Shown: one piece after another, positions 1,834 to 3,559 of the stretch
Layout: every line of letters starts with the position of its first letter
Position numbering within the stretch: the first letter of the stretch is position 1
Position numbers and translations under genes: made by a program
Assembly: GCA_016209155.1 (NCBI GenBank)
Contig: JACQWU010000343.1
Span: 1-5,407, forward strand
Reading direction: 5' to 3'
Source of the DNA: Candidatus Desantisiibacteriota bacterium
Lineage (GTDB): Bacteria; JACRDZ01
Length of the DNA: 5,407 nt
Notes under the pieces: model-generated
What the model saw: only the letters and a program-made list of their open reading frames with translations
The model's database searches: none
What the model was told of the DNA's origin: nothing

Positions 1834-3282
1834 ATGTCTAAAAAAATGCTGATAATTATAGTTTTTCTAATGATGTTCCAATTCAGCTGTTCTAAAAATA
1901 ATGTAAGAACCGGCAATGATTATACCCGAAAAAAATTACCCGAGACAGGCAGTAAAAATGAGTCAAAGATGAATAAAACAGATTGTAATGAGTTTGAAAA
2001 TATTATGGTGAATAAAAACAATAGTGATTTTAATTTAGAAAGTTCTTCGCTTAATTTTGAAACAACAATATCAGATACGAAAGAAAATTCATCAAAAAAT
2101 AATAAAGATAATGTGGTATCAGGCAGTTTATTTAATACTGCCGATATCATTTCAAATCAAGCTGAAATAATTGTTTCTCCCGGGACAACAGATGATATAT
2201 TAATTGATAAGGATAAAAATGACGAAGAAAAAAGAAAAGAAATATTGGATCTTATGAAGGAGCATTACAATAGGGCTTTATTACTCTATAATTCAGGTGA
2301 ATATGAAGAATCTAAAAATGAATTTAAAATATCATTAAGGATTATGATCGATTCAGATCTGGAAACAGAAACATTTTTTAAGCTTGCCCCTTTTTATAAA
2401 AATATTTTTGATAGTTCAGAATGCAGGCAGGTGGCAGTAGATGAAAATAGCTGTTCTGAGGACCCGAATGTAAATGAATTTAATCAGGAAGTCGTTGATT
2501 ATATTAATAAATATAAAACAAATTATCGTAAAAAGATGTTAAAACGTTTATCAAGATCCACCCGCTATATCGGTAAAATAAGAGAGATTTTTGAGAATGA
2601 GGGATTAGCTCAGGATCTTGCCTATTTACCCATGATAGAAAGTGATTTCGCAATTAGGGCTCACTCAAAAGAAGGTGCTGCGGGTTTATGGCAATTTACA
2701 AAGAAGGCAGGGAAAAAATATAATTTAAGGATGGATTCATCAATAGATGAAAGATATGATCCTGTTATATCAACTATAGCTGTTGCAAAAAAAATAAAAG
2801 ATCTTTATAAAACATACGATTCCATTTTGCTTTCTGAAGTCGGTGAATTTACAACACTAAGAACAGTCGGAATAGCTGTAACGCATAATTTACAGAATCT
2901 GACAGATCAAAAAGATTTATCGATTGAAGCAAGAAAATATATAGCAGATTTTGTGGCAAATTTGGTAATAGCTAAAAATCCGGAAAAATATGGTTTTGAG
3001 AAAATAGAATATGCGCTTCCTCTGGAATATGATGAAGTTTCAGTTAATGGAGATTATCCTCTTTCAATATGCGCAAAAGCGGCACAATGTTCTTTGCAGG
3101 AAATAAAAGATTTAAATCCGGCACTTCTCCTGGGACGTACTCCAACTGGTGATAATCAATTTATTTTGAAAATTCCCGGTGGAAAATCTGAAATATTTAA
3201 TAATGCCATTGAGTCAGGGTTGATACATATTGTCAGGCCCGGAGAAACAATGTTGAGCATTGCACTTAAATATAATATATAA
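1834..3282 (+). CDS. mltD: MltD-like lytic murein transglycosylase lipoprotein, truncated in its LysM domain
   Basis: Family members cleave the MurNAc-GlcNAc bond of peptidoglycan, forming 1,6-anhydroMurNAc, in the periplasm. The 482-residue product begins with a lipoprotein-like signal (hydrophobic core, FQFSC, Cys19; the lipobox is imperfect). Residues 20-130 are an Asn/Ser/Lys-rich linker. Residues about 140-190 form TPR-like helices (YNRALLLYNSGEYEESKNEF). The SLT (GH23) domain follows, with the catalytic Glu269 in YLPMIES, GAAGLWQF (281-288), DERYDPV, and Tyr369 in ARKYI before the MltD-typical NPEKYGF. The usual AYNAGEG loop is not recognisable; the aligned stretch (about 336-342) reads VGEFTTL. 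A LysM-like domain typical of MltD spans about 399-450, and a second LysM starts at 465 but is cut by TAA at 3280-3282; the rest continues in frame beyond. Family assignment is strong; activity is doubtful given the missing motif, and full wall binding given the cut LysM. Confidence 0.88.
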   Translation: MSKKMLIIIVFLMMFQFSCSKNNVRTGNDYTRKKLPETGSKNESKMNKTDCNEFENIMVNKNNSDFNLESSSLNFETTISDTKENSSKNNKDNVVSGSLFNTADIISNQAEIIVSPGTTDDILIDKDKNDEEKRKEILDLMKEHYNRALLLYNSGEYEESKNEFKISLRIMIDSDLETETFFKLAPFYKNIFDSSECRQVAVDENSCSEDPNVNEFNQEVVDYINKYKTNYRKKMLKRLSRSTRYIGKIREIFENEGLAQDLAYLPMIESDFAIRAHSKEGAAGLWQFTKKAGKKYNLRMDSSIDERYDPVISTIAVAKKIKDLYKTYDSILLSEVGEFTTLRTVGIAVTHNLQNLTDQKDLSIEARKYIADFVANLVIAKNPEKYGFEKIEYALPLEYDEVSVNGDYPLSICAKAAQCSLQEIKDLNPALLLGRTPTGDNQFILKIPGGKSEIFNNAIESGLIHIVRPGETMLSIALKYNI

Positions 3283-3462
3283 TTACATAATCTGGCTAAA
3301 GCAAATAATATTACAGAATTAAACAATATTAAAGCCGGAATGCATTTGATAATCCCACTGGATAAAAAATTAAGTTTAAAGAAAATAAAAAAAGATACGG
3401 ATGTAAAAAAAGATTTATGTAATGCCCTTGTAGGTGCAGGTCTTGCGCCTGCCCGTCATTAA
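3283..3462 (+). pseudogene. In-frame remnant of mltD: second half of the LysM domain and a repeat-derived tail
   Basis: Directly after the TAA at 3280-3282 the same frame stays open for 59 codons to a TAA at 3460-3462. It begins LHNLAKANNITELNN and runs through IKAGMHLIIP, exactly the second half of a LysM domain whose first half (HIVRPGETMLSIALKYNI) ends the CDS above. Only one residue, at the turn where LysM domains often have Ser or Thr, is replaced by the stop, so a single nonsense change such as TCA to TAA explains it. The last residues (NALVGAGLAPARH) are encoded by the dispersed repeat at 3427-3457, so the original C-terminus may have been altered by that repeat too. There is no ribosome binding site for independent translation. 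Confidence 0.82.
3427..3457 (+). repeat. Dispersed hairpin repeat of the GTAGG(T)GCAGG...CCTGCCC type
   Basis: GG-T-GCAGG (3433-3440) pairs with CCTGCCC (3448-3454) around TCTTGCG, leaving one bulged T, inside an AT-rich region. GC-rich hairpins with the core GTAGGGGCAGG-TCTTGCG-CCTGCCC are a familiar dispersed repeat in environmental bacterial genomes (recalled, not searched); when read as protein they give tails such as VGAGLxPA. This copy overlaps the end of the original mltD frame and could act as a weak transcript-end hairpin, though no U-tract follows. Confidence 0.7.
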
Positions 3463-3480
3463 CATCTAACCTGTTATTTA

Positions 3481-3510
3481 TATAAAGACGCAAAATTTTG
3501 CGTCTCTACA
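3481..3510. repeat. 30-bp palindromic dispersed repeat, copy 2 (two changes)
   Basis: This copy matches 658-687 at 28/30 positions. The right arm (3496-3510) is identical; the left arm TATAAAGACGCAAAA has G-to-A changes at 3482 and 3485. In minus-strand RNA both become G-U wobbles and the stem survives, while in plus-strand RNA they are A-C mismatches. It lies between the mltD remnant and the metK promoter. Confidence 0.88.
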
Positions 3511-3559
3511 TATTTTCTATAATGACATATCCGTCCTAAAAATATATTAAAAAAATATA

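Follow-up and report, generated by a model that had tools for sequence, protein, structure and literature searches.

How should an in-frame stop codon be read when it cuts a LysM domain in two and the frame resumes behind it? We addressed this question for an MltD-like lytic transglycosylase gene in a window of 5,407 nucleotides, which is contig C324 of a 3.08-Mb assembly (352 contigs; 79% complete, or 78.8% to the decimal). The window begins with miaA, which lies on the minus strand and is truncated where the contig ends; genes for a PEP-CTERM protein and the transglycosylase follow, and then metK and apt. The names miaA, metK and apt are taken from the sequences themselves and general knowledge. 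Binning contamination was considered and rejected: metK was found once in the assembly, in the window, and the window shares its repeats with many other contigs, so that the contig very probably belongs to the assembly. The reading we favor, with a probability of about 0.72, is that the window copy is a diverged, probably non-catalytic duplicate recently hit by a nonsense codon. Coordinates of the relevant features are collected in Table 1.

Table 1. Features of the transglycosylase copy in the window and of the frame beyond its stop.
Feature	Position	Strand	Basis or remark
MltD-like lytic transglycosylase duplicate; in order, signal/lipoprotein-like N-terminus, TPR-like stretch, SLT without motif III, degenerate LysM1, half LysM2	1834–3282	+	ORF; 482 aa to in-frame TAA
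SLT domain	within 1834–3282	+	Pfam SLT, 52.2 bits
Catalytic Glu and following Ser (motif I, ES; residues 269–270), retained	2638–2643	+	E in 110 of 110 homologs
Codons GAA and GTC bordering the 12-nt in-frame deletion of AAYN (motif III)	2836–2841	+	Codon alignment
LysM2 split by the stop	3226–3357	+	40.7 bits (Pfam LysM, X in place of the stop)
In-frame TAA	3280–3282	+	Pro codon in paralog, G001 and G003; Thr in G002
Frame past the stop: remaining LysM2, linker and repeat-derived codons, without LysM3	3283–3459	+	
Dispersed repeat (GTAGGTGCAGGTCTTGCGCCTGCCC...) forming the last codons and stop of the read-through frame	3428–3462	+	

The first-pass annotation had described a TAA that splits a LysM domain with exactly one residue missing at the join, and both observations hold. 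The MltD-like frame (1834–3279) reads ...HIVRPGETMLSIALKYNI up to the stop and gives LHNLAKANNITELNNIKAGMHLIIP past it, remaining open for 59 codons to 3459, with the next TAA at 3460–3462. With an X at the stop, the joined domain matches positions 1–43 of the Pfam LysM profile, whereas the first half alone (profile positions 1–18) scores 14.4 bits and the second (22–43) 15.9 bits, both below the cut-off of 20.9 bits; the LysM across the stop is therefore no chance resemblance. In a codon alignment, the position of the TAA is occupied by proline or threonine in the intact paralog described below and in the same-phylum relatives G001–G003 (Table 1), so one residue has been replaced by a stop. 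None of these relatives carries a stop at that codon.

The gene had been taken for an otherwise intact MltD, and its status as a duplicate was missed. An intact paralog of 657 codons lies on contig C10 of the same assembly, is 57% identical to the window copy and has a complete architecture: its SLT domain contains AAYN and is accompanied by two Pfam LysM domains and a stretch resembling LysM1. The three same-phylum genomes each have one complete, full-length copy, in no case beside metK. The window and C10 copies are sisters in a maximum-likelihood tree (support, 100/97), with end branches of 0.81 and 0.27, respectively, a roughly threefold difference; duplication therefore took place within the lineage and was followed by faster change in the window copy. 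No close relative carrying the window copy appeared among the 80 loci retained of 559 confirmed relatives (best identity, 40%), nor was the copy found in 97 further genomes searched, and it is carried by one genome only.

The window copy has also lost much of what defines its sister. Where the paralog reads GAG GCG GCT TAT AAT GCC, the window copy reads GAA ---- GTC in the codon alignment, a deletion that removes AAYN and with it the motif III tyrosine (AYN) found in 110 of 110 homologs, leaving no AYNxG. Two further conserved positions are substituted, Trp331 (99% of homologs) by isoleucine and Pro259 (100%) by alanine. AYNxG contacts the substrate in Slt70 (PMC550655), and AYNAG is part of the ES-GLMQ-AYNAG signature (PMC8517470). 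Given these roles, the loss of AAYN together with W331I and P259A makes weak or no lytic activity likely. Some function may nevertheless persist, given that the copy retains motif I (E269 and its serine; role from PMC8517470 and PMC550655), motif II (GLWQF, 2683–2697) and many other conserved SLT positions. Alignment with the paralog and relatives further revealed in-frame loss of a 27-residue segment preceding the SLT domain and of 11 linker residues before LysM2. LysM3 is absent: a tblastn search with the paralog's LysM3 tail found no convincing remnant downstream of LysM2, and in its place a dispersed genomic repeat closes the read-through frame. With LysM2 cut by the stop and LysM3 gone, the C-terminal LysM repeats of the MltD type are lacking. 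Since all of the earlier losses are in frame, the window copy probably persisted for a while with a protein product that was altered or no longer catalytic.

The repeat at the end of the frame belongs to a family (GTGCAGGTCTTGCGCCTGC, 3428–3462) with many copies on other contigs at 88–96% identity, several of them on contig C186. Near-identical palindromes with a GACGCAAAATTTTGCGTC core (655–688 and 3478–3511) flank the pair formed by the PEP-CTERM and transglycosylase genes; the genome contains 20 exact matches to this core and none to the reversed control, and the palindromes possibly represent a small dispersed element. A 30-nt intergenic direct repeat, 90% identical between its copies (581–610 and 1709–1738), flanks the PEP-CTERM gene (834–1583; Pfam PF07589, 29.1 bits), a gene whose presence hints that the genome encodes an exosortase system. 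An Rfam search of the window returned no matches.

Despite its rapid divergence, the window copy evolved under constraint. A codon model rejected omega = 1 on the window branch by 27 lnL units (−6092.7 versus −6065.6), and by 16.7 units (−5362.6 versus −5345.9) with pre-stop codons only; omega values are rough, as the model took in four sequences with saturated synonymous sites and several branch lengths at fitting bounds. Neutral simulation from the paralog (480 codons) produced a mean of 4.9 stops at 0.05 substitutions per site and 26 at 0.5, compared with none before 3280 and one at 3280 in the window frame, which caps neutral change in the window copy at about 0.05 substitutions per site. 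It follows that the frame enjoyed protection over most of the period after duplication and that the stop probably arose recently relative to that event, although a sequencing error would fit the counts too. We considered that an AYN-less paralog under purifying selection might have acted as a pseudoenzyme, partnering the active MltD in a regulatory or peptidoglycan-binding capacity and now being trimmed of its LysM domains, a possible but unlikely role.

The LysM2 half behind the stop is identical to the paralog at 15 of 25 positions, the similarity that either a very recent stop or a base-calling error would leave. An assembly or base-calling error in the MAG would conceal a real gene with a sense codon, whose non-catalytic product would be longer and include all of LysM2. 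The fragmentation and incompleteness of the assembly, the clean frame on both sides of the stop and the otherwise whole LysM2 all accord with this, but the proline codons of the paralog, G001 and G003 (CCT or CCA) differ from TAA at two or more bases, even if the codon of the immediate ancestor may differ, and in a gene already degenerate a true nonsense change is plausible. We regard an error as improbable and the stop as probably real in the organism. A recent nonsense change, among the explanations first put forward, fits best. The undecayed downstream half had been attributed to a recent event or ongoing selection; the former stands, whereas selection for short and long forms of a working enzyme does not, given the prior losses of motif III, linkers and LysM3. 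We see little likelihood that the truncated 482-residue protein is a stable functional form, with the residual LysM2 half a young non-coding remnant: purifying selection up to the stop and stepwise C-terminal loss, with LysM3 gone earlier, would suit it, but the remnant shows scarcely any decay, which marks the truncation as young and barely exposed to selection. Decay appears the more probable fate.

Programmed readthrough, yielding a short and a long form with different peptidoglycan binding, had also been raised and is extremely improbable. Its one attraction is the frame that stays open after the stop, but TAA followed by T (TAAT) is an efficient stop context, RNA folding downstream of the stop is unremarkable (z, −0.18), and the extension ends in repeat-derived sequence. 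No suppressor tRNA with a UUA anticodon was present among the tRNA genes and tmRNA found in this incomplete assembly. The relatives have a sense codon at this position, whereas a readthrough gene would be expected to conserve both the stop and the frame behind it. Reassignment of TAA had been judged unlikely; in agreement, the paralog, metK and apt also end in TAA. The case is one of commonplace gene decay or truncation and involves no new decoding mechanism.

Together, these results suggest that an MltD-type lytic transglycosylase was duplicated within the lineage, that the window copy then changed at about three times the rate of its sister, losing motif III, two linkers and LysM3 in frame, and that the nonsense codon in LysM2 would have been gained later. 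The present product would be a 482-residue protein with a damaged SLT domain and a degenerate LysM1, and housekeeping activity presumably comes from the intact paralog. Split domains need reading against paralogs, as a seeming readthrough candidate here proved to be a redundant, already damaged copy. At most, the locus points toward a lytic transglycosylase paralog that lacks catalysis, of mild interest for an active-site motif lost in frame while the copy stayed under constraint, a possible pseudoenzyme stage.

Compared with MltD (GH23; Pfam SLT and LysM), the window copy shares the domain order and the catalytic ES and GLWQ motifs but lacks the motif III AYN, LysM3 and half of LysM2. It matches the NCBIfam murein transglycosylase D model only partly (63.5 bits), whereas the intact paralog fits it over 375 residues (201.1 bits). 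Like young nonsense pseudogenes of bacterial duplicates, it combines a faster branch and an intact sister with a single in-frame stop, here inside a conserved LysM domain; unlike them, it had sustained earlier losses, all in frame, and remained constrained long after duplication.
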